Made by a program: the position numbers and the translations under genes | Part shown: one piece after another, positions 5,100-19,914 of the stretch | Position numbering within the stretch: position 1 is the stretch's first letter | Layout of the letters: the number at the start of each line of letters is the position of its first letter | Notes under the pieces: generated by a model | The model's input: only the letters and a program-made list of their open reading frames with translations | Databases searched by the model: none | Told to the model about the DNA's origin: nothing | IMG/VR virus record: IMGVR_UViG_3300025132_000217 | Coordinates: 1 to 27,838 of that record | Strand: one strand, 5' to 3' | Source: a virus | Length of the DNA stretch: 27,838 nucleotides

Positions 5100-5869
5100 T
5101 GGCTATTAATGTTGGAGTAACTGGAAGTGCAGGAAGGTTTATCGGTGGTGGTGCTGGTGTTTATAGAAACACCCAGTTAAAAATGTATTTAGACCCTTTC
5201 AAATATTCTGCTTGGACTGCTGAAACGGCGTCAACTTTTCTTGATATAAGTGGATGGGGGAATAATATGACATTGGTAAACGGAGCAAGAAGTCGTACAG
5301 ATGGTTGGTGGAGTTTTGATGGAACAGATGATTTTGGTTACAGAACAGATGACTCTGATTTTGATTATGGTACAACGATAGACTTTTCTATACAAATGTG
5401 GTATTATAATTTAGGTGGGAATGGTTCTGATTTTTATCTAATAAGTAAAGGAAAAAAATCATCAGCAAAAGGTAACCCAGCTACTGGGTTTAGTCTGTTT
5501 TGGAATACGGGAACAAGTGAATTAAGATTGAGAATGAATGAAAGTACAGGAATAAATAGTCCAGGAAATACTCATAATTGGGCACAAGCTCAATGGATAA
5601 ATTTAGCAGTAGTTGTTGATAGAAGTTCTGATGTAAAGTTTTATAAAAATGGTGTACTTGCAACTACTGAAACTGGTAGTACAACCGCACAGAATATCTC
5701 AAATGATAGGTATATTTTAATTGGTGGTTCTCAAAATACTAATTCTACTACTGGTGTTCTTGATGACTTTAACGGATACATGGGACATATTCTTATTTAC
5801 TCAACTTTACTTGATGAGGATGAAATAAGACAAAACTTTAATGCCCATCGTGGAATTTATGGGGTGTAA
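5099..5869 (+). CDS. LamG/concanavalin-like lectin-fold protein, copy 3
   Basis: A 256-residue paralogue with DISGWGNN, WWSFDGTDDFGYR, TIDFSIQMWYY, WINLAVVVDRS, FYKNGVLATTE, YILIGG and closing ILIYSTLLDEDEIRQNF. I take ATG 5099, which overlaps the previous stop (TAATG) as at the preceding junction, rather than an upstream in-frame start at 5072 inside the previous gene. It likely binds surface glycans like the other two copies. It ends the fibre cassette; a 46-base gap with a TATTTATA box follows. Confidence 0.85.
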   Translation: MAINVGVTGSAGRFIGGGAGVYRNTQLKMYLDPFKYSAWTAETASTFLDISGWGNNMTLVNGARSRTDGWWSFDGTDDFGYRTDDSDFDYGTTIDFSIQMWYYNLGGNGSDFYLISKGKKSSAKGNPATGFSLFWNTGTSELRLRMNESTGINSPGNTHNWAQAQWINLAVVVDRSSDVKFYKNGVLATTETGSTTAQNISNDRYILIGGSQNTNSTTGVLDDFNGYMGHILIYSTLLDEDEIRQNFNAHRGIYGV

Positions 5870-5915: not shown

Positions 5916-6680
5916 ATGATTAAATTAGTAGATTTATTAAACGAGGGTGTATACGACAAAGGAATATTAAAAGCAGTTTTTCTTGCTGGAGGTCCAGGAA
6001 GTGGAAAGACATATGCAGCAGAAGGTCTGTTTGGTATACCAGAAAATATTAATCTGTCCTATACTGGATTAAAGATGGTAAACTACGACCAAGAGTTTGA
6101 AAAAGCACTAAATAAATATGGTTTCGGAACTGAGTTAGATGCAATGCCAGATGAAGTGTTTGCAGATTTAACGGGATATGATAAGAAGACAGATGAACCA
6201 GTTACTGGTGTTCATAGTGGATTAAGAGATTATACAAAATCATTGACAAAAGCAAGACAGAAACTATATGAGAACGGAAGACTTGGAATGATTATAGATG
6301 GTACTGGTGATGATTATTCAAAGATAGCAGACAATAAATCAAGACTTGAAAGAATTGGATATGATTGTTATATGGTTTTCGTAAATACTTCAATGGAAGT
6401 AGCGTTACATAGAAACAATAATAGAAAGAGAGTTCTTCCTAAAAAATTAGTAACAGACTCTTGGCACAAATGTCAGAAAAATATCGGTAGATTTCAAGGA
6501 TTGTTCAAAGGAAATATTGTTGTCATTGATAACTCAAAACATTTAGAAGAAGATGAAGCAAAAAAGAAATTTGATTCTTTAGCAAAAACTTACATTGATA
6601 AGTTCGTAAAGAAACCAACGAGGAATCCAAAAGGAAAAAATTGGATTAGAAAACAAAAGATACTTAAAAAGAGAAAGTAA
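5916..6680 (+). CDS. P-loop kinase (zeta-toxin/AAA_33-like) with capsid-targeting-like leader
   Basis: This 254-residue protein has a clean Walker A motif GGPGSGKT (residues 25-32), a Walker B-like strand GMIIDGTG (124-131), and an Arg-rich lid HRNNNRKRVLP (165-175). That pattern fits a small P-loop phosphotransferase of the zeta-toxin or T4 PNK-kinase type; the substrate cannot be told. The C-terminus is strongly basic (residues 228-254), suggesting nucleic-acid or scaffold contact. Residues 1-10 (MIKLVDLLNE, followed by G) resemble T4 internal-protein capsid-targeting leaders and carry an L-x-E/G site of the type cut by gp21. I recall relatives in many marine T4-like phages, annotated only as hypothetical or kinase-like. 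Packaging in the head is inference. Confidence 0.75.
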   Translation: MIKLVDLLNEGVYDKGILKAVFLAGGPGSGKTYAAEGLFGIPENINLSYTGLKMVNYDQEFEKALNKYGFGTELDAMPDEVFADLTGYDKKTDEPVTGVHSGLRDYTKSLTKARQKLYENGRLGMIIDGTGDDYSKIADNKSRLERIGYDCYMVFVNTSMEVALHRNNNRKRVLPKKLVTDSWHKCQKNIGRFQGLFKGNIVVIDNSKHLEEDEAKKKFDSLAKTYIDKFVKKPTRNPKGKNWIRKQKILKKRK

Positions 6681-7093
6681 TGATAAGATTACAAGACCTA
6701 TTAGAACAAAAATACAAAGAGTGTCCCCCAGCAACTCAAGATGTAAAATTAAATACTCAGAACAGAGATTTAACTACTAAAGATTTTAATTACGGGCCTC
6801 AAGATGTAGATAATCCAGGTGATTACTGGATAAAGGTTGCAAAAAGATGGAACACAGAAGTAGAAAATGTTAACAAATCTTTATGTGGTAATTGTGTTGC
6901 TTTTGATATATCACCAAGAATGTTGGAGTGTATGCCAGGAGAAGTATCAGATGAATCTGGTCAATTAGGATATTGTTGGATGCATCATTTCAAATGTCAC
7001 TCTGCTCGTAGTTGTCATACATGGGCAAAAGGTGGGCCTATAAAAGATGATAAGATTTCCTATATATGGGGTAAAAAAGCTTTTAGTAAATAA
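6680..7093 (+). CDS. Cys-rich, HiPIP-like metal-binding-type protein
   Basis: A 137-residue protein beginning with the recurring leader MIRLQDLLEQ. Cysteines at 69, 72, 84 and 99 follow the pattern C-x2-C-x11-C-x14-C with a MPGE stretch after the third and a GYCW context at the fourth. This resembles high-potential iron-sulfur proteins, which bind a 4Fe-4S cluster. Two further Cys (106, 112) and several His sit in FKCHSARSCHTWAKGGP, so zinc binding is a good alternative. It starts at the TAATG junction with the kinase gene, so the two are co-expressed. There is no export signal. Function is unknown; the metal-site idea is inference from spacing. Confidence 0.65.
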   Translation: MIRLQDLLEQKYKECPPATQDVKLNTQNRDLTTKDFNYGPQDVDNPGDYWIKVAKRWNTEVENVNKSLCGNCVAFDISPRMLECMPGEVSDESGQLGYCWMHHFKCHSARSCHTWAKGGPIKDDKISYIWGKKAFSK

Positions 7094-7108
7094 AGATAAG
7101 AGGTAGTC

Positions 7109-7585
7109 ATGTTAGTAAACTTTGATGAAATAATAGAAGTAGTATTACATCACGAGGGTGGGTATGTAAACGACCCGAAAGACCCAGGTGGTGAAACTAA
7201 TTTCGGAATAGCAAAAAGGTCACATCCAGATGTGGACATAAAAAATTTAACAAAAGATGGTGCTAAAGAAATCTACAAAGAGCATTATTGGGATAAGAAC
7301 AAAGTAGAATCTTTATCAGAAGAATTAAGACATATTTATTTTGATATGTGTGTAAATCAAGGTAGAGGTAGAGCAGTAAAAATATTACAAAGAGCAGCAA
7401 ATGCTAAAGGAGCAGGTCTAAAGGTAGATGGTGGAATGGGGCCAAAAACAATAGCAGGTTTGAAAGGTGTAGAGTTAGATAGAGTTCGTGCTTATCGTGT
7501 AAAGTATTATGCAGATTTAGTAACGAGAAAACCCGATTTAGAAAAATTTTACTTTGGTTGGTTTAGAAGAGCTCTTGAAGTTTAA
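7109..7585 (+). CDS. GH108-family endolysin (N-acetylmuramidase-like)
   Basis: This 158-residue protein has the family signature HHEGGYVNDPKDPGGETNFGI near its N-terminus, with Glu16 of EGGY as the expected catalytic acid, followed by the IYKEHYWD segment. Residues from about 80 onward (FDMCVNQG, VDGGMGPKT, YFGWFRRALEV) match the short peptidoglycan-binding domain that usually follows in GH108 lysins. It should cut the glycan backbone of peptidoglycan, for host lysis or, as a virion enzyme, for entry. There is no signal peptide and no adjacent holin that I can recognise, so export would need a holin encoded elsewhere. Confidence 0.88.
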   Translation: MLVNFDEIIEVVLHHEGGYVNDPKDPGGETNFGIAKRSHPDVDIKNLTKDGAKEIYKEHYWDKNKVESLSEELRHIYFDMCVNQGRGRAVKILQRAANAKGAGLKVDGGMGPKTIAGLKGVELDRVRAYRVKYYADLVTRKPDLEKFYFGWFRRALEV

Positions 7586-7593
7586 AAAAAGAC

Positions 7594-7623
7594 TTGACAT
7601 ATATAGGCAAAATGTCGTATATT
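7594..7623 (+). promoter_or_regulatory. Sigma70-type promoter before the NMNAT/ligase-like gene
   Basis: A perfect TTGACA (7594-7599) is followed after 18 bases by TATATT (7618-7623), close to bacterial consensus. It sits in the 69-base gap between the endolysin and the 810-residue gene. The spacer is flanked by GACAT/ATGTC (7597-7601 and 7612-7616), an inverted repeat that could be an operator. Host-type promoters usually serve early genes, which fits a non-structural product. Confidence 0.6.
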
Positions 7624-7654
7624 TACATAGATAGATTGGGGGTTTACAACCAAA

Positions 7655-10087
7655 ATGAGTTTAAATGTATTAACAGAAAGTTTAGTTAAAGATATTCTTG
7701 GTAAAGAGTCTAAGAAAACCCAACTATTAGCATTCAATAAACTTGATGAATTAAAACTAAAAAAGAATAATGTAGTAGTTGTATATCCTGGAAGATTTCA
7801 ACCATTTCATAAAGGTCACTATCACTCATATTCTCAACTTGTTCGTGAGTTTGGTAAGAAAAATGTTTTTATAGCAACATCAAATAAAACTGAGGCAGGT
7901 AGGTCACCATTAGGATTTAAAGAAAAAAAAGTTATCATGACGACCATGTTTTCAATACCATCGTCTCAAATAGTTCAAGTAAAGAATCCATATGCACCAT
8001 CAGAGATTCTAAATAAATATGATTCGGATTCTACGATATTGGTTGTAGCGGTAGGAGAAAAAGATAGTAGTAGACTAATGGGTGGTAAATACTTTCAGAA
8101 TTTCAAAGGAACAACAGATTTTGATACATATGAGAATCAAGGATATGTTATTATAGCATCACCATTACAATTAAAGATTGGTGGTAAACTAATTTCTGGA
8201 ACAATAGTAAGAAAACTTTTGGGTCAAGAATTAGATGACAATGTAAGACAGAGTATGTTTAAAACTCTTTTTGGAAAATACGACAAAAGAATTGATATGA
8301 TTCTAAAGAAAAAGTTTGAAAGAAAGTTAAGTTTCTTTCCACAAAAGATAGACAAGACAGATGGAGAGAAAAGAATTTTGAACGATAAATTAATTGATGC
8401 ATTTATGAACGAATCAAGTAGAGGTCTTACTGCTACAGATGACGGGCCAACCTTTATGTACCCAAGTCATAGTACATTTATGGCATCTGCAAAAAGAAGA
8501 GCAGAAAAAATTGGATATCAGTTAGTAGATTTTGTTTTAGGAAGAGAAGATTTTTATGACCATCCTATATATGTTGACGCAGTTAGTTTCTTTCCAGCAG
8601 GTAAAGCAGGTGCTTTGTCTCCTATCAACAGAGCAGACTATAAAGGAACACAAGCATATGCTACTTGGAAAAAACACATATCAAATATAGCGACACAAGC
8701 AGGATATGAACTATTAGCATTCAGTAAGAAAGAAGAAGATGAATCTAAAACAAATGTAGAACCAGAACATGATTCTAAAAAAGTAGTAGAAAAATATAAT
8801 ATAGTAAAAGATTTATTACCCTATTTACCACACAATAAAACACACAAGGAGTTATTACTTATGGGTGGAGCGTATGGACACCTTTCACATCCGTTTGATG
8901 ACAAGGACATGACATTCGGAGACATGAAAGAATTAGTAGATTTAGCATTACAAGGTAAACTTGAATATGTAAGAGAAAAAACTGATGGTCAAAATATAAT
9001 GGTCACATGGAAAGATGGTAAACTGAGAGCAGCAAGAAATAAAGGACATATAAAGAATGCAGGAAAAAATAGTTTAACTGCATCTGGAATAAAAGATATG
9101 TTCGCAGGTAGAGGTGACATAGAAGACGCATTCTTTTTTGCTATGAACGATTTAGGAAAAGCAATTGGTAAACTAAATAAGAAACAAAGAGATAAAATAT
9201 TTGGACAAGGTACTAAGTTTATGTCACTTGAGGTGATGTATCCAAAGACTGTAAATGTAATACCATATGGATTGTCAATGTTATACTTTCATGGTGTAAA
9301 AGAATATGATGACGATGGTAATGTTATTGGGGATGAAAGAAGTTCAGCGAGAAAACTTTCTGGAATGATAAAACAGATAAATCAAAGTGTACAAAAAACA
9401 TATACTATCTCTGATATTCCAGTAACTAAACTTCCAAAAGTTTCAGATTATTCAAAAAGAAAAGGATATTACTTTAGTCAAGTAAATAAATTAAAGAATG
9501 AGTTTGCTTTGAAAGATAGTGATGTCGTTTCTTTATATCATCAACAATGGTGGATGGAATATATTTTGAATGGAGCAAACTCTTCAGACTTTCCACATAT
9601 AACAAATGATATTATGGTAAAGTTAGTACAGAGATGGGCATTCTTTGATAAGAGTTACAAGATACCACAGATGAAAAAAGAATTAAAAGACTACCCTGAA
9701 TTTTTAGATTGGGTATTGTCTACTGATAAACAAGACCATACTAAATTATACAAAAAGAACATGGAACCATTTGAGAAATTATTTCTTGAATTGGGTGCAG
9801 AGATTATGAAGAACATGACTAACTTTTTATCTGCAAATCCATCAAAGTCAACAAGAATTATGGTAAAAGATTTGAATAGTTTGATAAAGAAAATAAATGC
9901 ATCAGACGATGTCAATGTAATAAATAAGTTAAAAACACAACTTGATAGATTAGATAGTATCGGTGGATTTGATGCTATTGTTCCAAGTGAGGGAATAACA
10001 TTTGTATTTAAAAACAATTTATACAAATTTACTGGAACTTTTGCACCTATTAACCAAATTATGGGACTATTTAGATATACAAGATAG
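7655..10087 (+). CDS. Fused nucleotidylyltransferase (NMNAT-like) and polynucleotide-ligase-like protein
   Basis: The 810-residue product joins two adenylyl-transfer modules. Residues about 38-200 are a HxGH-type nucleotidylyltransferase: GRFQPFHKGH (46-55) and ISGTIVRKLL (from 180), as in NadM/NMNAT-like enzymes that make NAD from NMN and ATP. Residues about 380-800 look like a nucleotidyltransferase of the ATP-dependent ligase superfamily: EKTDGQNI with the candidate adenylated lysine K442 (motif I), FMSLEVMYP with E526 (motif III), and SEGITFVFK with E779 and K786 (motif IV), then YKFTG. A region between (250-360) is unassigned. Possible roles are NAD synthesis combined with nick or RNA-end sealing. 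I am fairly sure of the first domain and less sure of the second. It has its own sigma70-like promoter, unlike neighbouring structural genes. Confidence 0.7.
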   Translation: MSLNVLTESLVKDILGKESKKTQLLAFNKLDELKLKKNNVVVVYPGRFQPFHKGHYHSYSQLVREFGKKNVFIATSNKTEAGRSPLGFKEKKVIMTTMFSIPSSQIVQVKNPYAPSEILNKYDSDSTILVVAVGEKDSSRLMGGKYFQNFKGTTDFDTYENQGYVIIASPLQLKIGGKLISGTIVRKLLGQELDDNVRQSMFKTLFGKYDKRIDMILKKKFERKLSFFPQKIDKTDGEKRILNDKLIDAFMNESSRGLTATDDGPTFMYPSHSTFMASAKRRAEKIGYQLVDFVLGREDFYDHPIYVDAVSFFPAGKAGALSPINRADYKGTQAYATWKKHISNIATQAGYELLAFSKKEEDESKTNVEPEHDSKKVVEKYNIVKDLLPYLPHNKTHKELLLMGGAYGHLSHPFDDKDMTFGDMKELVDLALQGKLEYVREKTDGQNIMVTWKDGKLRAARNKGHIKNAGKNSLTASGIKDMFAGRGDIEDAFFFAMNDLGKAIGKLNKKQRDKIFGQGTKFMSLEVMYPKTVNVIPYGLSMLYFHGVKEYDDDGNVIGDERSSARKLSGMIKQINQSVQKTYTISDIPVTKLPKVSDYSKRKGYYFSQVNKLKNEFALKDSDVVSLYHQQWWMEYILNGANSSDFPHITNDIMVKLVQRWAFFDKSYKIPQMKKELKDYPEFLDWVLSTDKQDHTKLYKKNMEPFEKLFLELGAEIMKNMTNFLSANPSKSTRIMVKDLNSLIKKINASDDVNVINKLKTQLDRLDSIGGFDAIVPSEGITFVFKNNLYKFTGTFAPINQIMGLFRYTR

Positions 10088-10096
10088 GAGATAATA

Positions 10097-10348
10097 ATGC
10101 CACATTCAATGGAAACAAGAAAGAAGATTTCCGAAGCTACATCTAAAGCGATGAAAAAAAAGTGGCAAGATTCTGAGTTTAGAAAGAAAAATGTAACATC
10201 AAGAAAAGGAAGAGTAGTAACTCAAAAAACGAGAGAAAAGATTTCCAACTCTTTGAGAGGTAAACCAAAGTCTGAAGAACACAGAACGGCACTTAAAATG
10301 GCTTGGAAAAAAAGAAAGAAACAATATAGTTTATATCACGAGGAATAA
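10097..10348 (+). CDS. Small NUMOD3-like DNA-binding protein
   Basis: This 83-residue, highly basic protein carries two helix-containing repeats, METRKKISEATSKAMKKKW and TREKISNSLRGKPKSEEHR, that resemble NUMOD3 motifs found C-terminal to GIY-YIG and HNH homing endonucleases. No nuclease domain is present. It may be the remnant of a homing endonuclease or a free-standing DNA-binding protein. It has a GGAG-type ribosome binding site (10087-10090) and sits directly before the zinc-ribbon and terminase genes. The motif match is by eye. Confidence 0.65.
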   Translation: MPHSMETRKKISEATSKAMKKKWQDSEFRKKNVTSRKGRVVTQKTREKISNSLRGKPKSEEHRTALKMAWKKRKKQYSLYHEE

Positions 10349-10353
10349 AGGTT

Positions 10354-10893
10354 ATGTCAACAAAACATGAAGAAAAGGCTTTACAGTCAATACTTAGGGG
10401 TGAAACTCCTGAGAAGAGAGTAATGGTAGGTTACGAAAGCGATAAGAAAATAGAAAGTAGAGATGGTAAGACCATTGAGTCCCCTTTGACAAAAGTCATG
10501 CAAGAGGCAAGAATGCCTTGGTTTTGTCCAGAGTGTAAATGTATCATGAAGAAAAAAGCAGATGATAGATACTGGACAAGGTATAAAATGTGTTTAGATT
10601 GTTGGTCTAAAAAAGAAACCAAAATGAAAATTGATGGAACATGGGAAGCATATGAAAAAGAACAAGATGAACTTTATAGGCGTTCTTATGTAAAAGATTT
10701 GAAAGCAGAATTAGAGGGATATATTAAAATGGTTTCTAAAGACCAAGATATTGCACAAGATAGTGGTGACTTAGAAAGATGGGGGATGAGTGACCCAACC
10801 GAGATTGTTGAGACTCTTAGTAAAGAGATTACTAATATTGATAAATACCTAAGTGACGAAATGACTTGGGAAGAGTTAAGTGATGGACAATAA
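10354..10893 (+). CDS. Zinc-ribbon protein in the terminase small-subunit position
   Basis: This 179-residue protein has a zinc-ribbon: C58-x2-C61 and C80-x2-C83, with W56 and W84 around the knuckles, then a charged, probably coiled-coil C-terminal half (residues 90-179). It overlaps the large-terminase gene by 11 bases. T4 carries the small terminase gp16 at this place, so it may do that job, but I see no sequence match to gp16 and oligomeric small terminases are not usually zinc ribbons. It could equally be a late-transcription or packaging accessory factor. Confidence 0.65.
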   Translation: MSTKHEEKALQSILRGETPEKRVMVGYESDKKIESRDGKTIESPLTKVMQEARMPWFCPECKCIMKKKADDRYWTRYKMCLDCWSKKETKMKIDGTWEAYEKEQDELYRRSYVKDLKAELEGYIKMVSKDQDIAQDSGDLERWGMSDPTEIVETLSKEITNIDKYLSDEMTWEELSDGQ

Positions 10894-12478
10894 ACTAAAA
10901 CAATTAATACAAAAAGAATATAAGAAATGTGCAGTTGACCCTATACATTTCTTAATGAAATATTGTCAGATACAGCATCCAGTAAGGGGTAAAGTACCAT
11001 TTCATTTGTATGAGTTTCAAAAGAAATCAATACGAGAATTAAAAGACAATAGATATAATGTCATTCTAAAAGCAAGACAGATGGGTATATCAACTCTAAC
11101 TGCTGGTTATTCATTGTGGATGATGTTGTTTCAACAAGACAGAAATATACTTGTTATCGCAACAAAGCAAGATGTAGCAAAAAATCTTGTTACCAAAGTG
11201 AGAGTTATGCACGACAATCTTCCAAGTTGGTTAAAAGGAAAATGTCTTGAAGATAATAGATTGTCTTTAAAGTTTTCCAATGGTTCTCAGATAAAAGCAG
11301 TAAGTAGTAGTGGAGACGCAGGTCGTTCAGAAGCACTATCTCTTTTGATACTTGACGAAGCAGCATTTATTAAGGATGTTGATTCTATATGGGCATCAGC
11401 ACAATCTACACTATCAACTGGTGGAAGTGCAATTGTTCTATCTACACCAAATGGTGTTGGTAACTTTTATCATAAGACTTGGGTTGGTGCTATGGAAGGA
11501 ACTAATGAGTTTAATCCAATAAAATTACATTGGGATTTACATCCAGAAAGAAATCAAGATTGGAGAGATGAACAAGACCAATTACTGGGCCCTAAACACG
11601 CAGCACAAGAATGTGATTGTGACTTTATAACTTCTGGTAATACGGTTGTTGATGGTACAATAATACAATGGTATGAACAAACTCATCTAAAAGAACCAAT
11701 TGAGAAAAAAGGATTTGATGGAAACTTTTGGGTTTGGGGATATCCAGATTATACAAGAGATTATATGGTATGTGCTGATGTAGCACGAGGAGATGGAAAA
11801 GATTTTTCTGCATTCCATGTGATTGATGTAGAGTCTATGGAACAAGTAGCAGAGTATAGAGGAATGGTTGGTACTAAAGACTATGGTAATATGTTAGTAA
11901 ATGTGGCAACAGAATACAATGATGCATTACTGGTTATTGAGAATGCAAATGTAGGTTGGGCAGCAATACAACCAGCAGTAGATAGAATGTATAAGAATTT
12001 ATACTATTCAGCAAAAGATTTAACAATAGTAGATACACAAGTTCAATTATCTCAAGGATATGACTTAAAGGGAAAAGATAAGATGGTTCCAGGTTTTTCA
12101 ACAACTGCAAAAACAAGACCAATGATTATATCAAAACTTGAAAGTTACTTTAGAGAGAAAGCACCTATTGTACATTCACAAAGATTGTTAGATGAACTAT
12201 TTGTTTTTATTTGGAATGGTTCAAGAGCAGAAGCAGCAAACGGATACAACGATGACCTTACAATGGCGTTTTGTATCGGTATGTGGGTAAGAGATACAGC
12301 ACTAAGATTAAGACAAGAGGGTATGGAAATGACTAAGTTAGCACTTGGTGGTATTGGAAGTAACTCAAGTTTTGGTCAAGGATTTAGTCAAGACAATCCA
12401 TTTGGACAGAGAAACCCTTGGCAAATGAAGGTTGGTACTGATGATGAATCAATAGAGTGGTTACTGGATAAGAATTAA
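10883..12478 (+). CDS. 17: Terminase large subunit gp17
   Basis: A 531-residue packaging motor. The ATPase has ARQMGIST (64-71) at the Walker A place, LLILDEAAF (154-162) as Walker B plus catalytic Glu159, and STPNGVGN (187-194) as the coupling motif. The RNase H-like nuclease shows ADVARGDG with D299, VIEN with E353, and YNDDLT with D457/D458. It cuts concatemeric DNA and pumps it into the prohead through gp20. The Walker A loop has Ile where T4 gp17 has Lys (RQLGKTT), so it is a deviant P-loop. I chose ATG 10883 over the GTG three bases upstream because it has the better spacing from AAGAG at 10871. Length is somewhat below T4 (610). Confidence 0.95.
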   Translation: MDNKLKQLIQKEYKKCAVDPIHFLMKYCQIQHPVRGKVPFHLYEFQKKSIRELKDNRYNVILKARQMGISTLTAGYSLWMMLFQQDRNILVIATKQDVAKNLVTKVRVMHDNLPSWLKGKCLEDNRLSLKFSNGSQIKAVSSSGDAGRSEALSLLILDEAAFIKDVDSIWASAQSTLSTGGSAIVLSTPNGVGNFYHKTWVGAMEGTNEFNPIKLHWDLHPERNQDWRDEQDQLLGPKHAAQECDCDFITSGNTVVDGTIIQWYEQTHLKEPIEKKGFDGNFWVWGYPDYTRDYMVCADVARGDGKDFSAFHVIDVESMEQVAEYRGMVGTKDYGNMLVNVATEYNDALLVIENANVGWAAIQPAVDRMYKNLYYSAKDLTIVDTQVQLSQGYDLKGKDKMVPGFSTTAKTRPMIISKLESYFREKAPIVHSQRLLDELFVFIWNGSRAEAANGYNDDLTMAFCIGMWVRDTALRLRQEGMEMTKLALGGIGSNSSFGQGFSQDNPFGQRNPWQMKVGTDDESIEWLLDKN

Positions 12479-12503
12479 ATGAGTTCTTTGTGATGTATCT
12501 AAC

Positions 12504-12511
12504 TATTTATT
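12504..12511 (+). promoter_or_regulatory. TATTTATT box before portal gene
   Basis: A one-base variant of the TATTTATA element lies in the 69-base gap between terminase and portal genes, 36 bases before the portal ATG. No -35 sequence is evident. The gap also carries the portal ribosome binding site GAGG at 12538-12541. Confidence 0.3.
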
Positions 12512-12547
12512 ATATACAAGATTTTAGGTTAACTTAAGAGGAAATTT

Positions 12548-14419
12548 ATGGCAGACACAACACTATTTGGTCGTCTTCGTAGACTATTTTCATCCAACAT
12601 AATTGTTAGGAATGTTGGTGGTAATCGTTTAAAAATAGCAGACACAGACAGAATCCAATCAAGTGGTAATTTAGCAACTAACTACTTAGCAGCAAGATAT
12701 TCTGGCATGCACATGCCAAACAATGTAGGTGGTTATAGACAGAATCCAGTCTACAACGCAGGTAGACTTGAACTATTTTCTGATTACGAAGCAATGGATT
12801 TAGACCCAATCTTAGCATCTGCACTTGATATTTACTCTGATGAATCTACAATGAAAAATGAGAATGGTGACATTCTTGATATTCGTTCTGATAATGAACA
12901 AGTTCGTGAAGTTTTACATAACTTATTTTATGATGTGATTAATATTGAATTTAATCTCTGGCCATGGATTCGTAGTATGAACAAGTATGGTGACTTTTTC
13001 TTAAAATTAGATATCGCAGAAAAGTATGGTGTTGTAGGTGTGGAACCAATGTCCCCATATGCAGTTTCAAGAGAAGAAGGTGTGAATCCAGATTTACCAC
13101 ATGAAGTTACTTTTAATGTAGATGATGGTAATAAAACAACTTCGTATAACAAAAATCAAAACACATTAAAGAATTATGAAGTAGCACATTTCAGAATGTT
13201 AACGGATTCTAACTTTTTACCTTATGGTAAATCAATGATAGAAGCCGCAAGAAAGATTTGGAAACAATTAACTCTTATGGAAGACGCAATGTTAATACAT
13301 CGTATCATGAGAGCACCAGAAAAAAGAATATTCAAGATTGATATTGGTAATATTCCACCAGCAGAAGTTGATAACTATATGCAACAACTGATAAATAAAA
13401 TGAAAAAAACTCCATACATTGACCAAAATTCGGGAGAGTATAATTTAAAGTTTAATATGATGAATATGATGGAAGACTTTTATTTACCAGTTCGTGGTGG
13501 TGATAGTGGTACACAAATAGAATCACTTAGTGGTATGGAATATAATGCAATTGATGATGTTGAATACTTAAGAAACAAGATGATGGCAGCTCTTAGAATC
13601 CCAAAAGCATTTTTAGGATATGAAGAGGGTGTTGAAGGTAAAGCAACATTAGCACAAGAAGATGTTCGTTTCGCAAGAACAATAGAAAGAATACAAAGGA
13701 TTGTTCTATCTGAATTAACAAAGATTGCAATCGTTCATTTATATACACAAGGGTTTGATAAAGAAGATTTAGTAGGTTTTGAACTAAATTTAACTAATCC
13801 AAGTATTGTATATGAACAAGAAAAGGTAGCACTTTGGAGTGAAAAGATATCTTTAGCAGAGTCAATGAAAGGAACTAAGTTAATATCTGAAGATTGGATA
13901 TACAAAAACATATTCAATATGACTAAAGACCAAGTAAATGACGAAAGAGCACGAATAATAGACGATATAAAACAGAACTTTAGAAAAGAACAGATTGAAA
14001 ATGAGGGTAACGACCCTGCTGTTACTAAAGAATCTTTTGGAACACCACATGATTTAGCATCAATGCACCAAAAAAGAGAGGGTGATATGCCCGAAGGTGG
14101 ATGGCCAGGTAGTGGAAGACCAAAAGAAGCAACAAAATATTCTACTGATAAACACCCAAGAGGAAGAGACCCTATTGGAAAGAAAGCATTAGACAAAACT
14201 TTTGATGTTGATACATCAATTAAACACACATATAAGAATAATTCACCATTAACAAAAGAAAATATAATAAATTCCGTATTAGATTCATTACCAAATAACA
14301 AAAAAATACTAATTGAAAAAACTCAAAACGAACAAATCACTAAAAAAAGTGATAAAGAATTTGATTTAATGAACGAAGATAAAGTTATTTTGTCAGATAA
14401 AGACATGAAATTGAAGTAA
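12548..14419 (+). CDS. 20: Portal protein gp20
   Basis: A 623-residue portal subunit, longer than T4 gp20 (524). Family features include DLDPILASALDIYSDE, FNLWPWIRSMNKYGDFFL, EVAHFRMLTD followed by YGKSMIEAARKIWKQL, MRAPEKRIFKIDIGNI, and RIPKAFLGYEEG before the long crown helices. The dodecameric ring sits at the unique vertex, starts prohead assembly and is the channel used by gp17. The extra C-terminal part (about 510-623) is hydrophilic, with a Gly/Pro-rich stretch (EGGWPGSGRPKE) and a Lys-rich tail, probably flexible. It has its own ribosome binding site and an upstream box, so it likely heads a late unit. Confidence 0.95.
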   Translation: MADTTLFGRLRRLFSSNIIVRNVGGNRLKIADTDRIQSSGNLATNYLAARYSGMHMPNNVGGYRQNPVYNAGRLELFSDYEAMDLDPILASALDIYSDESTMKNENGDILDIRSDNEQVREVLHNLFYDVINIEFNLWPWIRSMNKYGDFFLKLDIAEKYGVVGVEPMSPYAVSREEGVNPDLPHEVTFNVDDGNKTTSYNKNQNTLKNYEVAHFRMLTDSNFLPYGKSMIEAARKIWKQLTLMEDAMLIHRIMRAPEKRIFKIDIGNIPPAEVDNYMQQLINKMKKTPYIDQNSGEYNLKFNMMNMMEDFYLPVRGGDSGTQIESLSGMEYNAIDDVEYLRNKMMAALRIPKAFLGYEEGVEGKATLAQEDVRFARTIERIQRIVLSELTKIAIVHLYTQGFDKEDLVGFELNLTNPSIVYEQEKVALWSEKISLAESMKGTKLISEDWIYKNIFNMTKDQVNDERARIIDDIKQNFRKEQIENEGNDPAVTKESFGTPHDLASMHQKREGDMPEGGWPGSGRPKEATKYSTDKHPRGRDPIGKKALDKTFDVDTSIKHTYKNNSPLTKENIINSVLDSLPNNKKILIEKTQNEQITKKSDKEFDLMNEDKVILSDKDMKLK

Positions 14420-14424
14420 CTTTA

Positions 14425-14432
14425 TATTTATA
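14425..14432 (+). promoter_or_regulatory. TATTTATA box, candidate late promoter
   Basis: Exact TATTTATA, inside a longer TTATATTTATATA, lies in the 51-base gap after the portal gene and 38 bases before the next ATG. No TTGACA-like -35 is found at 16-19 bases, consistent with a T4-late-type promoter that needs only a -10 box. Confidence 0.4.
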
Positions 14433-14470
14433 TATGAATTAACCTAAAAACTTGTAGATACGGAATTGGT

Positions 14471-15328
14471 ATGAAGTATAAAAAACATTCAAAGGTCAAA
14501 AACACTGGCCTCATATTTGAGTTGTTAACGAGACAAATTGTTGCCGACTCATTAAATAATAAAAACTCACACGCAGTTAAAATCTTAAAAAAATATTTTA
14601 AAAAGGGAACTGAACTTTTTAAAGAATATCAAATTTATCAATGCTTTTTAAACCAAAAGTACAATGATGAAAAGAAAGCAGATAAATTGATTGACTTAGT
14701 ATTAGAACAAGTTGGTTCCGTAAATGAAAAACAAGTAAAACAAGAGAAATATAATCTAATTAAAGAAGTTATGGAAAACTATGACTTAAAAGATTTCTCT
14801 TCTGGAAGAATTACTAACTATAAAGTCCAAGCAAGTATTTACAAGTTGATGGAATATTATAGAAATAGTCAAAATGTAGAACCAAGTGAAGTGGTTGATT
14901 CAAGATTCACGGTAATAGAACATTTGACATCTGGTAAAACAAAGAAAAATAGAGATACTGAGATTAAAAAGTTAGTTGAAAAACAAGATAAAGATGTTCG
15001 TTATCTAACTATCAAGACTTTATTAGAAAAATTTAACGATAAGTATTCGTCTCTTGATGATAAACAAAGAAAACTATTAAGTACATACATTTACAATGTT
15101 ACAAATACCAATTCCTTGTCAGAATATGTGTATGGAGAGTTTTCTTCTATCAAAAAAGACATCTCTCGTTTGATGAAAAAAGTAGATGATGATGTAACTA
15201 CAATAAAATTAAAAGAAGTTATCAAACAAATACCTACAAAAAGTCAAACAAAATCAATGGTTAGGGATAAACAAGTAGCAAGTCTTCTTAGACATTATGA
15301 ATTAGTCAAGGAATTGAAAAAAGTATAA
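14471..15328 (+). CDS. Conserved head-cluster protein of unknown function
   Basis: A 285-residue, Lys-rich, mostly alpha-helical protein without membrane segments. The N-terminus has KVKNTGLIFELLTRQI, which I recall from proteins beside portal and prohead protease genes in marine T4-like phages. Later segments such as SLLRHYELVKEL and IKLKEVIKQIPTKSQTKSM suggest an extended helical bundle. Its position between gp20 and gp21, where T4 carries core genes 67 and 68, suggests a prohead core or assembly role, but no sequence match to those is visible. The stop overlaps the next ATG. Confidence 0.7.
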   Translation: MKYKKHSKVKNTGLIFELLTRQIVADSLNNKNSHAVKILKKYFKKGTELFKEYQIYQCFLNQKYNDEKKADKLIDLVLEQVGSVNEKQVKQEKYNLIKEVMENYDLKDFSSGRITNYKVQASIYKLMEYYRNSQNVEPSEVVDSRFTVIEHLTSGKTKKNRDTEIKKLVEKQDKDVRYLTIKTLLEKFNDKYSSLDDKQRKLLSTYIYNVTNTNSLSEYVYGEFSSIKKDISRLMKKVDDDVTTIKLKEVIKQIPTKSQTKSMVRDKQVASLLRHYELVKELKKV

Positions 15329-15552
15329 TGGATAAGTTAAGATATATAGTAAGAGAACTTGTTAAAAGACAATTAAAAGAAGCAAATGTAACTGCTAACC
15401 TTGATGGTGGAGAAGGGCCACCTAAAACACCTTATGCATTTTCTAAGAATAAAAAGAAAGATGATAAGAAAAAAGTAAAACACGCAGAAAAAGTATACGG
15501 ATACACTAAAGCAAAAAGGAATCCTAAAATATACAAAAAGTTTGGAGCATAA
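15328..15552 (+). CDS. Small basic protein with leader-like N-terminus, candidate prohead core/internal protein
   Basis: A 74-residue protein. Residues 1-18 form an amphipathic helix ending in QLKE, followed by Ala19, which matches the L-x-E/A site cut by T4-type gp21. The rest is very rich in Lys (NKKKDDKKK and later KAKRNPKIYKKFGA), suitable for lying on packaged DNA. It sits directly before gp21, where T4 has its small core proteins. I propose a packaged, processed internal protein; the motif is seen, the processing is inferred. Starts at a TAATG junction. Confidence 0.65.
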   Translation: MDKLRYIVRELVKRQLKEANVTANLDGGEGPPKTPYAFSKNKKKDDKKKVKHAEKVYGYTKAKRNPKIYKKFGA

Positions 15553-15553
15553 A

Positions 15554-16147
15554 ATGAGTAAAAATTTATTAGTTGATTACATACCATTCCAAGTTTCCCC
15601 AGAAATGATTAACGAATCAATGGCGAACAACAATGGTAAACTGATTGTAAAGGGTGTTTTACAAAGAGCAGAGGCAAAAAATCAGAATGGTCGTATCTAT
15701 CCTAAAGAAATTTTGATGAGAGAGTCAAAAAAGTACATGGATAGTTTTATAAAAGAGAGTAGAGCATTAGGAGAGTTAGACCATCCAGATAGTTCGGTTG
15801 TAAATCTACAAAATGTTTCTCATAATGTACTAAATATGGGTTGGGACGGAGATGATTTAGTTGGAGAAGTAGAAGTTTTATCAACACCATCTGGAAATAT
15901 CTTAAAAGAACTATTTCAATCTGGAATAAAGTTAGGAATTAGTTCTCGTGGTCTCGGTAGTGTTAAAGAAAAGGGTGATGTAAACGAAGTTCAAGATGAT
16001 TTTGAACTAATAGCATTTGACTTCGTATCAAATCCATCTACACATGGTGCATTTTTAAGACCAATGAATGAAAGTGTAGACAATAATCAGACCGACCCTA
16101 TCTCAAATATCAACAGAATCATTACAGAAATTCTTACGGAGAGATAA
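15554..16147 (+). CDS. 21: Prohead maturation protease gp21
   Basis: A 197-residue serine protease of the T4 prohead-protease family (MEROPS S80, herpes assemblin-like fold). Signature segments are GRIYPKEIL (46-54), LGELDHPDS with His77, LGISSRGLGS with Ser130/Ser131, and AFDFVSNPS with Asp156. It cleaves scaffold, internal proteins and the gp23 N-terminus after assembly, and then itself. Site MINE/S at residues 18-22 fits the gp21 consensus and may be its own maturation site. I chose ATG 15554, which has GGAG at 15544-15547, over an upstream TTG at 15542 in the previous gene. Confidence 0.93.
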   Translation: MSKNLLVDYIPFQVSPEMINESMANNNGKLIVKGVLQRAEAKNQNGRIYPKEILMRESKKYMDSFIKESRALGELDHPDSSVVNLQNVSHNVLNMGWDGDDLVGEVEVLSTPSGNILKELFQSGIKLGISSRGLGSVKEKGDVNEVQDDFELIAFDFVSNPSTHGAFLRPMNESVDNNQTDPISNINRIITEILTER

Positions 16148-16149
16148 AA

Positions 16150-16620
16150 ATGGTCAGTTTGGTGGATTTACTTCCTAAAAAACATAAATTTGAATTAGGA
16201 AAAGTCCAGTCAAATCCATATCATCGTGTATTTAAACCAATAGAAGAACAAGATGACTCTGGTCTTGTAGGAGATGACCACGAACAAGTAGAATTATTTG
16301 GTTTTCATAGTAAAAATTACGACATATGTCAGAGTGCAGTTAAGGCAATTAACCTATTAAAGAAGGCACGAATGACCGAAAAGAGTAAAGAAATACTTAT
16401 TCAGTTGGTAAAGATACAAGATGACTTCTTTGGAATTGAAAAAAAGGCACTTAAAGACGAAAAAATCAATGAAGAAGATTTAAAGGGAATGATAAACAGA
16501 CTAAATGAGATACATCATAGAGTAGGAATGTTATCAGCAAGATTTAAAAGTGATTTAAGAAAACATTTTACATACACAACCATGCATATTTTTAGGGTAT
16601 TACCTCATTATGAAAATTAA
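16150..16620 (+). CDS. Unknown prohead-cluster protein with leader-like N-terminus
   Basis: A 156-residue protein that starts MVSLVDLLPKK, a variant of the leader shared by several neighbours. Residues 60-156 look helical, with a conserved-looking C-terminus (HHRVGMLSARFKSDLRKHFTYTTMHIF). A PIEEQ segment near residue 36 also occurs in the protein at 17313-17633. It begins two bases after gp21 ends and overlaps the next gene by 11 bases, so it belongs to the same translation-coupled head unit. No family recognised. Confidence 0.6.
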   Translation: MVSLVDLLPKKHKFELGKVQSNPYHRVFKPIEEQDDSGLVGDDHEQVELFGFHSKNYDICQSAVKAINLLKKARMTEKSKEILIQLVKIQDDFFGIEKKALKDEKINEEDLKGMINRLNEIHHRVGMLSARFKSDLRKHFTYTTMHIFRVLPHYEN

Positions 16621-16804
16621 AGTTGAAAAATTAAGACAAATTGTCAAAGAAGAACTTGAGTTCGTTAGAAATATGAAGTCTCTTGCTATGATTACAGAGG
16701 AAATCACAGACAAAGATTTGGTAATGTTAAGACAGATTATAAGATTTGAGTTAGCATCTGTTTTTTATGACTTGTATCGGAGGAAGAACGCATGGGCAAA
16801 GTAA
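16610..16804 (+). CDS. Small helical protein with leader-like N-terminus
   Basis: A 64-residue protein, MKIKVEKLRQIVKEELEF at the start, then a second amphipathic helix (DLVMLRQIIRFELASVFYDLY). The two helices echo each other (LRQIVKEEL and LRQIIRFEL), hinting at an internal duplication of the leader. It overlaps both neighbours (11 and 13 bases), as expected for a real coupled gene. Function unknown; a small prohead-core protein is possible. Confidence 0.55.
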   Translation: MKIKVEKLRQIVKEELEFVRNMKSLAMITEEITDKDLVMLRQIIRFELASVFYDLYRRKNAWAK

Positions 16805-17316
16805 ATATACTTAAACAAATCATAAAAGAAGAGATAAAAAACTCTCTTTTAAACGATGGTCTTGGTGATAGAATGTCTAAGAAAATTAGTAAACATAAAG
16901 GTACACGAAATAGAGACGATATGAAAAAGGTTTACAAACTTCTTAGAAAATATGGTAACAATAAAAAAGACTCCAGAGAGATGATGATTAGAAATTATGA
17001 CTATGTTACCAAGACATATAGAAATGCAAGTCCAAAAAAGAAAGCAGAAATACTTTCCTCTTTATCAGCAACCGATAAACCAAAAGCAATAAGACTTAAA
17101 GGTAGAGGTGTGTATCAAGACTTTGACGGATTAGACGAAAATACTTACTATGATGAAGATAAATTATTAAAATTGGTTGATAAAGATAAGTTTTTAAAGT
17201 ACATGGTAAAATCTAAGTACAGAAATAAACCAAAAGCAAAAGATTTAAAAGATATGTTTGATACTTATATAAGTGGTGACAAAGATATGGAAAAAAAATA
17301 TAGGAAAATACGATGA
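16792..17316 (+). CDS. Lys-rich protein with leader-like N-terminus
   Basis: A 174-residue, strongly basic protein starting MGKVNILKQIIKEEIKNSLL. The body is full of Lys/Arg (for example MKKVYKLLRKYGNNKKDSREMM) with a short acidic patch near DGLDENTYYDEDK. This composition suits a DNA-associated internal head protein. It overlaps the previous gene by 13 bases, has GGAGG at 16780-16784 before its ATG, and its TGA overlaps the next ATG. I recognise no family. Confidence 0.6.
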   Translation: MGKVNILKQIIKEEIKNSLLNDGLGDRMSKKISKHKGTRNRDDMKKVYKLLRKYGNNKKDSREMMIRNYDYVTKTYRNASPKKKAEILSSLSATDKPKAIRLKGRGVYQDFDGLDENTYYDEDKLLKLVDKDKFLKYMVKSKYRNKPKAKDLKDMFDTYISGDKDMEKKYRKIR

Positions 17317-17633
17317 AAAAAATGAAAGAATTACTAAGCGAAATTAGATTCAGAGATGAACATAATAATATACTGAGATTATCAGATATTACGAAAGAAT
17401 ATCAAGATAAGTTCATGACATCTCCAGGTGCAAAACATGGTGAACCTATTGAAGAACAAGCACCATTACCTGCTGATGTGAAAAGATTTATGGGAAAATT
17501 TACTGATTCTTTAAAAGGAGCAGGTTTGAATCGTATGAAACAAGCACAAGTGTTAGCAGGGGTTGTTGATGCACTTGGTATTGAACCAAAAGAACTTATG
17601 CAACTAATACAAAGAGTAAAAAGAGGAATGTAA
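17313..17633 (+). CDS. Small protein with leader-like N-terminus
   Basis: A 106-residue protein beginning MKKMKELLSEIRF, which fits the shared leader and offers an L-S-E/I bond. Residues 45-52 contain PIEEQ as in the protein at 16150. The C-terminal half (FTDSLKGAGLNRMKQAQVLAGVVDALGIEPKELMQLIQRVK) looks like a compact helical domain. ATG 17313 overlaps the previous TGA; the TAA overlaps the next ATG. Function unknown. Confidence 0.6.
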   Translation: MKKMKELLSEIRFRDEHNNILRLSDITKEYQDKFMTSPGAKHGEPIEEQAPLPADVKRFMGKFTDSLKGAGLNRMKQAQVLAGVVDALGIEPKELMQLIQRVKRGM

Positions 17634-17884
17634 TGACAAATTCTACTTACAAAAAGATGATGTTTGAAGACCTTGAAGTAAATGAGGAACTTAGTAAGAT
17701 AGGAAGAGAACAACATTTAGGTATGTTAAAGTTACAACTTAAAAAGTATGAAGATGTGGTTAAAAAATATATAAAATCTCTTGATAGAGAAGGTGAAAAA
17801 AAGATGGCAGTAGAGTTGATGAAACTTTATAAGAAACATATTATAGAATTTAAAATAGGATTGGAAAAAATTTATAAGGTATGA
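17633..17884 (+). CDS. Small helical hypothetical protein
   Basis: An 83-residue Lys/Glu-rich protein that should be almost entirely alpha-helical (YKKMMFEDLEVNEELSKIGR, then long charged helices). It begins at a TAATG junction. It lacks the leader seen in its neighbours, although MMFEDLEVNEEL is loosely similar. Its TGA stop lies in the same frame as the following gene, only eight codons before that gene's ATG. No family recognised. Confidence 0.55.
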   Translation: MTNSTYKKMMFEDLEVNEELSKIGREQHLGMLKLQLKKYEDVVKKYIKSLDREGEKKMAVELMKLYKKHIIEFKIGLEKIYKV

Positions 17885-17892
17885 TATTTATA
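17885..17892 (+). promoter_or_regulatory. TATTTATA box, candidate late promoter
   Basis: Exact TATTTATA occupies most of the 24-base gap between two small head-cluster genes, 16 bases before the next ATG, with ribosome binding site AAGGAG at 17896-17901. The close spacing would give a very short leader RNA. Confidence 0.35.
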
Positions 17893-17908
17893 TCTAAGGA
17901 GAAACACT

Positions 17909-18382
17909 ATGATTAAACTAAAAAAATTATTAAAAGAAGAAAAGTCTCAACAATATAAACAACATCGTAATGAGTTTATTGAGGCAGTTAACAACTTCAG
18001 TTCACTTGGACAAAACATCTATAAGTCTGGAAAAGACCTAAAGGAAATAAGTGAAACAATCAATCGTATCTGTGGTATGGCAGAAGTATTCACAATGGAA
18101 GAATCAGCAGATTGGTTTGATGAAGTTACAGTTAAAAGAAACATAGGTTCTCTAAAAGAAGCAAACAAGACATTTGTTGAATCAGCAAAAGAGATGTTCG
18201 CATTACAACAAAGACTTGAGGGTGCATATGAAGATATAGGTCAAGTTCTTGGTAGGTATTATGAAATCAAAGAAGCAACTGATGATTACGATGGTACGAA
18301 TGTAGATGGATATATAAAAGACGACCCACATGATGATAGTGAAGTTTCTCAAAAAAGGGATATGGAAGATATTCCAAATTAA
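17909..18382 (+). CDS. Helical protein with leader-like N-terminus and gp21-type sites
   Basis: A 157-residue protein starting MIKLKKLLKEEK, the clearest copy of the shared leader. The central part (20-135) is helical. Two internal segments, SLKE/A and EIKE/A, match the L/I-x-E/A consensus of T4-type prohead protease, the second just before an acidic tail (DDYDGTNVDGY...). This would fit a prohead-core protein trimmed during maturation. It has a strong ribosome binding site and a TATTTATA box. Function is inferred from position and sites only. Confidence 0.6.
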   Translation: MIKLKKLLKEEKSQQYKQHRNEFIEAVNNFSSLGQNIYKSGKDLKEISETINRICGMAEVFTMEESADWFDEVTVKRNIGSLKEANKTFVESAKEMFALQQRLEGAYEDIGQVLGRYYEIKEATDDYDGTNVDGYIKDDPHDDSEVSQKRDMEDIPN

Positions 18383-18406
18383 TTTAAAATGAAAGGTTAT
18401 AACAAA

Positions 18407-18640
18407 ATGAGAAGAAAAAAACAAAAGAAATCTGATTGGGCTTTAGGTGGTCAAGGGGTAAAGGTACTAAATGGAGATGTTGAATTAGCCCTTAAACGAT
18501 TCAAAAAAATAATTAAAGATTCTAAAAAACTGATAGAATTATCAGAAAGAAGATTTTATACCAAACCATCTGTTAAAAAAAGGTTAGAAAAGAAGATGGC
18601 AAAGGTAAGAGAAAGAAAAAGATTACAAGAAAACCAATAA
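18407..18640 (+). CDS. rpsU: Ribosomal protein bS21, phage-encoded
   Basis: The 77-residue protein matches bacterial S21: GDVELALKRFKKIIKDS aligns with the DVALRRFKR helix, ERRFYTKPSVKKRLEKK with the REFYEKPTxxRKR block, and a basic tail follows. bS21 sits on the 30S platform near the anti-Shine-Dalgarno end of 16S rRNA and helps initiation. A phage copy could replace the host protein and favour phage mRNAs. Phage S21 genes are known from pelagiphage HTVC008M and many metagenomic phages. ATG 18407 has GAAAGG ten bases upstream; ATG 18389, six codons earlier, is an alternative. It lies in the head cluster just before scaffold and capsid genes. Confidence 0.9.
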   Translation: MRRKKQKKSDWALGGQGVKVLNGDVELALKRFKKIIKDSKKLIELSERRFYTKPSVKKRLEKKMAKVRERKRLQENQ

Positions 18641-18789: not shown

Positions 18790-19914
18790 ATGGATAGTCT
18801 CTTAAAAGACGCTATCGCAGACGCAAAAACAGTTCGTGAAACTGCTTTAGAAAATGCTAAGTTAGCACTAACCGAAGCTTTTACACCTACTCTTCAATCT
18901 ATGCTATCTCAGAAACTTCGTGAAGAAGATGATGAAATGGATATGGATATGGATGACAAGGAAGAGGACGAAGAAGCAGAAGAAGCACCAGCAATGGATG
19001 CAGAAGCTGCTGATGACGACCACATGCCAGGTCATGATGCCGATGAAGGTCATGGAGAAGACCATGATGAAGAAGAAGGCGAAGAAGAAGAAGAAGGTAT
19101 GAGAGAAGAAGAAGGTGAAGAAGAAGACGAAAGAATGTCTGAAGAAGAAGGCGAAGAGCATGATGAAGATGATGACCTTGACCTTGAAGCAATCATTAGA
19201 GAGCTTGAAGAGGAAGCAGGGGAAGATGAAGACGAGCGTGATGACATGAAAGAAGAAGAAGACGCTGATGAAGATAAAGAAGAAATGGATGAACAATCTG
19301 ATTCTTCTGGTATCGGCAAATCTGATAACAAAGTTGACCAAGCAAGTGGTGATGACTATGAAAAGGCAGAAACTGAAAAATCTTCTAAAGCACCTGGTGC
19401 TGAAATGGAAGACCATAAGAAAGTTGATGACTTGAAAGACCACATAGAGCTTGACCTTGATTCTATCATTCGTGAAATTGAAGGCCTTGATGAAGAGGAA
19501 GACAATGATGAAGGTGAAGAGATGAAAGAAAACGAAGAACTTGAAGAGGTTAAAAAATCTCTTGAAGAGCATCGTGAAGTAATCGTACATCTTCGTGAAA
19601 AAATCAATGAAGTCAATCTTCTAAATGCTAAACTTCTTTACACAAATAAGTTGTTCAGAAATCATAACCTTAATGACGGACAGAAATTGAAAGTCGTTGA
19701 GACATTTGATAGAGCAACTAACATTCGTGAAGTAAAGTTAGTTTTCACAACTTTAGCCGAGTCATTTGACGGAGTTAGAGTAACTAAGAAGCGTTCTGTG
19801 AATGAAAGTGTTGCAAGTAAGGCTGTTGCATCTACGAAACCAAAGCAAGAAATTGTTGAGGAATCAAATGATGTTGCAGATAGATTCAAACAATTAGCAG
19901 GGTTAATTAAATAA
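18790..19914 (+). CDS. 22: Prohead scaffold/core protein gp22
   Basis: A 374-residue scaffold. The N-terminus MDSLLKDAIADAKTVRETA, followed by ALTE/AFTP and LQSMLSQKL, matches gp22 of marine T4-like phages; L-T-E/A is a typical gp21 cut site. Residues about 42-160 are extremely acidic Glu/Asp repeats (long GAAGAA runs), followed by a second acidic block to about 255, a coiled-coil-like part (EELEEVKKSLEEHREVIVHL), and the typical C-terminus DRFKQLAGLIK. It fills the prohead and is degraded by gp21 on maturation. T4 gp22 is 269 residues; the extra length is mainly the acidic region. Confidence 0.9.
   Translation: MDSLLKDAIADAKTVRETALENAKLALTEAFTPTLQSMLSQKLREEDDEMDMDMDDKEEDEEAEEAPAMDAEAADDDHMPGHDADEGHGEDHDEEEGEEEEEGMREEEGEEEDERMSEEEGEEHDEDDDLDLEAIIRELEEEAGEDEDERDDMKEEEDADEDKEEMDEQSDSSGIGKSDNKVDQASGDDYEKAETEKSSKAPGAEMEDHKKVDDLKDHIELDLDSIIREIEGLDEEEDNDEGEEMKENEELEEVKKSLEEHREVIVHLREKINEVNLLNAKLLYTNKLFRNHNLNDGQKLKVVETFDRATNIREVKLVFTTLAESFDGVRVTKKRSVNESVASKAVASTKPKQEIVEESNDVADRFKQLAGLIK

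Follow-up and report, generated by a model that had tools for sequence, protein, structure and literature searches.

Phage proteins that enter the host together with the DNA are known for few phages, usually through proteomics; in T4, Alt and IPI are ejected in this way. Mutagenesis of T4 IPIII showed that, within its 10-residue capsid-targeting sequence (CTS), packaging depends on residues 4 and 7 and processing on residues 8 and 10, and that Asp at position 10 blocks cleavage while targeting is kept (PMC9026906). Reviews have already suggested that, by means of the CTS, T4-like phages can package a variety of proteins (PMC9026906). Here, we analyze a DNA stretch of 27,838 nucleotides (IMG/VR virus record IMGVR_UViG_3300025132_000217, hereafter the window), which by its genes is a 27.8-kb fragment of a far-T4 marine myovirus and in which a series of genes begins with a short leader of this kind. 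These leaders are very probably T4-type capsid-targeting propeptides, belonging to a system that has been greatly expanded in its cargo.

Three other systems invite comparison. Phage P1 delivers anti-restriction proteins, and the N-terminal signal of its DarB protein suffices to bring a foreign protein into the head; unlike the genes described here, the P1 Dar proteins have no common N-terminal consensus (PMC9024508). The ejection proteins of the giant phages phiKZ and SPN3US are likewise carried in the head and processed by a gp21-related protease that cuts C-terminal to Glu, but the SPN3US motif is A-x-E and the propeptides are mostly long, 100 or more residues. The polyvalent proteins of phages and conjugative elements, zeta-toxin-like kinases among them, have been proposed to be packaged or injected effectors; the passages of that source that were searched describe no common cleavable leader (PMC5512222).

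Results

From the IPIII data we derived a strict rule, which requires Glu at residue 10 and a hydrophobic side chain at each of residues 4, 7 and 8, and a loose rule that permits an offset, and ran both on the 29 genes of the window, with 20,000 shuffles as the null. The strict rule picks four genes, starting at 5916, 15328, 17313 and 17909 (0.09 expected by shuffling); the loose rule adds those at 16610, 16792 and 17633, for a total of 7 observed versus 0.88 expected. Neither count was matched in any shuffle. Applied to 268 T4 gene calls, the strict rule returns five, namely IPII, IPIII, Alt, gp24 and gp61.1, the first four of which are tabulated as gp21-cleaved head proteins (PMC9026906, Table 1). 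IPI is not picked up among these calls. No gene fits the strict rule in lambda, T7, Cellulophaga phi38:1 (first 50 kb) or Pelagibacter HTVC010P, 268 genes together. The comparison with T4 internal proteins drawn in an earlier note on this DNA is borne out by this selection. T4 gp61.1 (MKTFKEFIKE↓DMVAG..; NC_000866, 18966-19130, minus strand, locus L344; here and below, the arrow marks the putative cut) is predicted to be an uncharacterised head cargo of T4.

Loci were collected around homologues of the protease and kinase described below, and IMG/VR was then scanned with a degenerate DNA pattern for MIKLKx[LIVMF]2xE, which occurs at least 113 times. Among the matches listed, 112 of 113 have an in-frame stop no more than 40 codons upstream, so these occurrences are gene starts. 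The leader 30-mers are distinct in 108 of the same 113, with synonymous codons freely varied; conservation is therefore at the protein level. At least 111 genes of 45 aa or more among these matches start MIKLKxLLxE and continue into at least 74 unrelated body families, and on several contigs three to five of these genes stand in tandem. The bodies behind the window leaders are also mutually unrelated (all pairwise BLAST E > 0.03). The earlier claim of one leader on unrelated bodies thus holds both in the window and in related phages.

For a non-circular test, genes of the protease and kinase loci were chosen only by their start, M[IVL][KR][LIM], which left 31 after body deduplication versus 337 others. 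Glu stands at position 10 in 65% of these starters versus 7% of the other genes, and hydrophobic residues at positions 7 and 8 in 90% and 94%, respectively, versus about 31%; past residue 10 there is no signal. This test was used instead of pooled [LIV]xE enrichment by position over all clusters, which was blurred because families are split across clusters. A relaxed pattern gave 109 matches in 47 records versus 0 for its reverse; among the 14 records that had not been selected through the pattern, the counts were 16 and 0. Among the matches listed, 33 leader contigs exceed 28 kb; 16 of them encode gp21 and four more gp23 or gp20, so that 20/33 carry a T4-type head gene. Leader clusters sit at the protease gene in several genomes. 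On gene content, then, the leader is associated with T4-type heads; it is not universal in them, and its exclusivity to them is not proven.

By sequence comparison, the leader is modular and exchangeable between bodies. The body AGVPNHLRAGF.. follows both MIKLKSLLE↓ and MDLRQLSKITTRYTNRLDE↓, and the body GPDEQRPADKE.. both MIKLKDFLNE↓ and MKDGCECGGGCCSITE↓, each joined directly after the Glu. In the first pair (locus L009, 4892; locus L029, 1912) the DNA is 95.7% identical over 463 nt, and homology begins exactly at the Glu codon. A third body, xKRDYKxEYKK.., occurs with four different leaders and also leaderless, and those of genes 6680, 16150, 16610, 16792, 17313 and 17633 are each found elsewhere with different N-termini. 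Near-identical bodies thus follow unrelated leaders, or none, which argues against the leader being an ordinary part of a conserved domain. Automatic detection of leader swaps also gave terminase and capsid-protein N-termini with plainly homologous leaders; those were discarded. Between L009 (4113-5317) and L029 (1858-2337), an extra body with a new leader has apparently been inserted between the old leader (LSKITTRY..) and the body that it once preceded; a remnant of the old leader persists, and the case illustrates cargo gain.

The window encodes a gp21-type prohead protease (15554-16147, plus strand; phrog_207, E 1e-56; homologues in 2,541 phage records), which lies inside the leader group, as the earlier note had stated. 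Judged by this protease, Microcystis phage Mel-JY01 (59%) is the closest isolate, followed by Flavobacterium phages immuto (48%). The major capsid protein (19939-21555, plus strand; phrog_138, E 1.5e-74) has an LVQE63↓S site that aligns to T4 gp23 E65↓A66; QL[IVL]xE↓[AS] is present at this site in nearly all of 36 far-T4 relatives and is absent from the HTVC008M capsid protein. The acidic scaffold, in the gp22 position (18790-19914, plus strand), has an LTE29↓A site, which nearly all of 44 relatives share in the form LxE↓AFTP. Because [LIV]xE is conserved at both sites, the expected specificity of the protease in this clade is [LIV]xE, the same as the leader endings. The cut motif first proposed, with Leu or Ile at P3, is shared with the capsid-protein and scaffold sites; Val also occurs at P3.

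The earlier note had listed eight leader genes. All eight starts exist with the N-termini quoted, but gene 16150 has no Glu, gene 6680 has its Glu at position 9, and gene 17633, which fits the loose rule, was overlooked. They include a P-loop kinase and a Cys-rich protein. The kinase gene (5916-6680) begins with MIKLVDLLNE↓ (10 residues; 5916-5945; strict rule; like all leaders below, on the plus strand). Its body (5946-6680) resembles zeta toxins and polynucleotide kinases (PF06414, E 4e-8); in Foldseek, the best matches are the polynucleotide kinases 4gp6 and 4jt2 (E 4e-6), and zeta toxin 1gvn is also found. E10 and G11 are invariant in all 25 aligned homologues, where the domain is preceded by [LIVM]xE↓G and the residues before that differ; the same junction is seen again in multidomain fusions. 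AlphaFold2 models the kinase domain with good confidence and the leader with very low confidence, the mean pLDDT being 47 for residues 1-10 versus 87 for residues 11-20, and in this model the leader lies outside the kinase domain. The Cys-rich protein (6680-7093; 7 Cys) has the 9-residue leader MIRLQDLLE↓Q (6680-6706). Its body is found elsewhere behind MDNFNLRKYLAEGKLYE↓ (L281_6258) and MKLKHLALE↓ (L257_8777), and the 9-residue form is independently backed by MIKLKSLLE↓ in the leader swap above.

The other leaders lie around the protease gene. At 15328-15552, where T4 has gp67/gp68, lies the gene of a small basic protein with the 18-residue leader MDKLRYIVRELVKRQLKE↓ (15328-15381), which fits the strict rule at E10 and has an additional LKE18↓A site; most of the protein's 88 homologues have an [LIV]xE↓(A/V)S-type junction. 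Gene 16150-16620 starts with a degenerate leader, MVSLVDLLPK (16150-16179), in which the helix is kept; its homologues carry canonical leaders (MIKLKNIMNE, MIKLTSLLVE). By analogy with the T4 position-10 Asp mutant, this protein may be targeted but uncut. The leader of gene 16610-16804 (16610-16699; loose rule) contains IVKE14 and MITE30 sites, and homologous bodies begin after MITE↓E, KINE↓E or NLKE↓E. Gene 16792-17316 has the leader MGKVNILKQIIKE↓ (16792-16830; loose rule) and a mature protein with a net charge of about +20, whose body occurs elsewhere with at least four other leaders and also leaderless. Gene 17313-17633 begins with MKKMKELLSE↓ (17313-17342; strict rule); its body is found behind another leader class and also fused as the C-terminal domain of kinases. 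The leader of gene 17633-17884, MTNSTYKKMMFE↓ (17633-17668; loose rule), has a Y-x-x-M-M-x-E pattern resembling T4 Y-x-x-F-I-x-E, and those of its homologues end ..DWRLxE↓. Gene 17909-18382 begins with MIKLKKLLKE↓ (17909-17938; strict rule), and nearly all of its 65 homologues have a leader of the same class. Some of these homologues (e.g. L072, 9842-10504; L253, 3851-4534) have two leader-like segments with a conserved GGVVSxPAF peptide between them, which occurs again at the C-terminus of the L253 copy.

Gene 7655 was also examined as a possible leader carrier and rejected: its N-terminus (..KDILGKE) misfits the rule, unlike the ..LVRPLIDE↓ leader of its relatives, which are sometimes fused to a kinase. 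The 810-aa protein (7655-10087) has an NMN-adenylyltransferase-like N-terminus (PF01467, E 4e-7; PDB 2qjt, E 0.003) and a KxDG motif (EKTDGQN).

Pfam searches with at least 74 representative leader proteins identified, among others, a Mom-type protein, Nudix, an RNase_T exonuclease with DUF5661, a cell-wall hydrolase, an NT5C nucleotidase, an AAA_33/zeta-like kinase and metallopeptidases, one of them an MPTase-PolyVal match. By their predicted activities, such enzymes fit better as injected effectors than as head parts. What might point to a multidomain effector architecture, as in polyvalent proteins, is that single match together with the kinase-NMNAT fusions of relatives; each of the window genes encodes one domain. 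Cargo with WHFTS or YHFTS motifs (L281, L282, Mel-JY01) looks ADP-ribosyltransferase-like by eye only, and L281 and L282 gave no Pfam match. In Mel-JY01 (60276-62718, locus L342), three leader-bearing paralogues with ISDRVWHLTT-type bodies, similar to L281 and L282, stand in a row.

Discussion

The analogy to the T4 internal proteins drawn in the earlier note is supported, and the mechanism would be theirs. Like IPI-IPIII and Alt, the proteins described here start with a helix of about 10 residues (hydrophobic at 4, 7 and 8, Glu at 10), and their mature bodies, basic or enzymatic, are unrelated to one another; in both cases the genome encodes a gp21-type protease and the cut motif is L/I-x-E. 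Unlike in T4, the cargo is far more numerous, with the body families counted above belonging to a single leader class, and several classes exist: MIKLKxLLxE; LKEIIREEI..LxE; LRxLSxITTRYxNRxxE; MKILESYxKIAKxMLTE; and LTxWLVxxxLxE. Leaders here also head fused multidomain proteins, and P3 may be Val. As far as the open-access literature shows, it is new that so much cargo is tagged, that the leaders fall into several classes, that a junction is exact to the base and that the system extends to fused proteins; judged by title and abstract, that literature on the capsid targeting sequence included nothing on marine far-T4 phages. In immuto (NC_055915; 1803, 117631 and 118632), three different proteins have a common 24-residue leader, MENFDLKKFLVENKLTxNSKxLxE, a further class.

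The leader, its exchange at the Glu, the protease and the conserved [LIV]xE site can all be read from the genomes, and from them we strongly infer head targeting and cleavage. Late in infection, the N-terminal helix of 9-30 residues would bind the prohead core, or scaffold; during head maturation, the gp21-type protease would cut after the Glu of [LIV]-x-E; and the freed body would remain in the head beside the DNA. Because the leader alone would suffice, any protein gaining one would become head cargo, and the phage lineage has accordingly tagged a varying assortment of enzymes and small proteins with it. Those that are enzymes would probably then be ejected into the host, where they would act on metabolism or defences. 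This is the least certain step; by analogy with T4, injection is plausible. A broader proposal, which we put forward tentatively and rate somewhat below an even chance, is that far-T4 phages possess a general delivery platform, in which swappable [LIV]xE leaders load rapidly exchanged effectors for injection, and fused cargo would represent polyproteins cut by gp21 at internal [LIV]xE↓G linkers to yield separate kinase, nucleotidyltransferase and other enzymes in each head.

Several observations weigh against reading every leader as a tag for injected, cleaved cargo. Proteins 15328, in the gp67/gp68 position, and 17909, beside the scaffold, may be prohead-core proteins rather than injected cargo. 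They are conserved, syntenic and flank the protease and scaffold, and 16150 fails the cleavage rule because it has no Glu; the claim of head loading made in the earlier note therefore has to be narrowed. The kinase E↓G might also serve the fold, because it is invariant. In HTVC008M, which encodes gp21, the 50 kb covered contain no strict leader. T4 Alt has a propeptide reported as 7 residues, so the rule finds the right proteins and not always the exact bond. The window P-value is partly post hoc, because the rule was drawn up after the window had been read. Finally, no T4-type head gene was detected in 13 of the 33 leader contigs longer than 28 kb, and a PF06841 search did not change that; these may be fragments, or another kind of phage.

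The first two of these points are also what favours the strongest alternative, namely that the leader is a docking helix which anchors prohead-core or head proteins to the scaffold or portal, most carriers being assembly parts that never enter the host. The synteny of 15328 and 17909 across so many homologues, the gp21 cleavage of the T4 core proteins gp22 and gp67, and the helix of 16150, which lacks the cut site, would all be accommodated. We nevertheless consider it unlikely, given that many bodies are non-structural enzymes (Nudix, NT5C, exonuclease, Mom, cell-wall hydrolase, kinase) and that the Glu junction is both the most conserved point and the site of swaps. Less probable still is that the leader sends proteins elsewhere, to the membrane, a host protease or a phage compartment, its likeness to the T4 CTS being convergent. 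The 13 contigs just mentioned would suit this idea. Against it, the rule as calibrated on T4 singles out head proteins there and selects nothing in phages that lack gp21, and in several genomes leaders cluster at the protease. An origin by chance or composition, with AT-rich genomes yielding Lys/Ile/Leu-rich N-termini (MKK and MIK starts are generally frequent in AT-rich phages) or the 5′ end acting as a translation-initiation element, is refuted by controls: there are nearly no hits in shuffles or with the reversed pattern, synonymous codons vary, AT-rich HTVC010P has none, and the Glu is specific to position 10.

If the leaders are capsid-targeting propeptides, as we favour, they provide a signal, readable from sequence, by which probable head cargo can be picked out from thousands of genes now called 'hypothetical' in abundant marine phages. 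The signal also predicts where the mature protein begins and points to candidate cargo even in T4 (gp61.1). If the cargo is injected, lytic phages would gain new first-minute effectors by means of a 30-nucleotide tag, and a broad natural set of leaders would be on offer for protein delivery.

The window also carries a terminase gene at 10883 and a portal gene at 12548 (phrog_213). From the portal through small proteins to the protease, and on through further small proteins to scaffold and capsid protein, gene order matches that of T4 (20-67-68-21-22-23). A search for T4-type late promoters gave three scattered TATAAAT sites only. Just 5′ of the terminase region is a small homing-endonuclease-like ORF (10097-10348; phrog_655, E 7e-7). 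Upstream of the kinase, three tandem paralogues of 232-265 aa (3679-5869), which form one cluster together, appear lectin/LamG-like by eye only. A ribosomal protein S21-like gene (18389-18640; phrog_21469, E 3e-6) lies inside the head module, and in Mel-JY01 an S21-like gene likewise adjoins the head genes.

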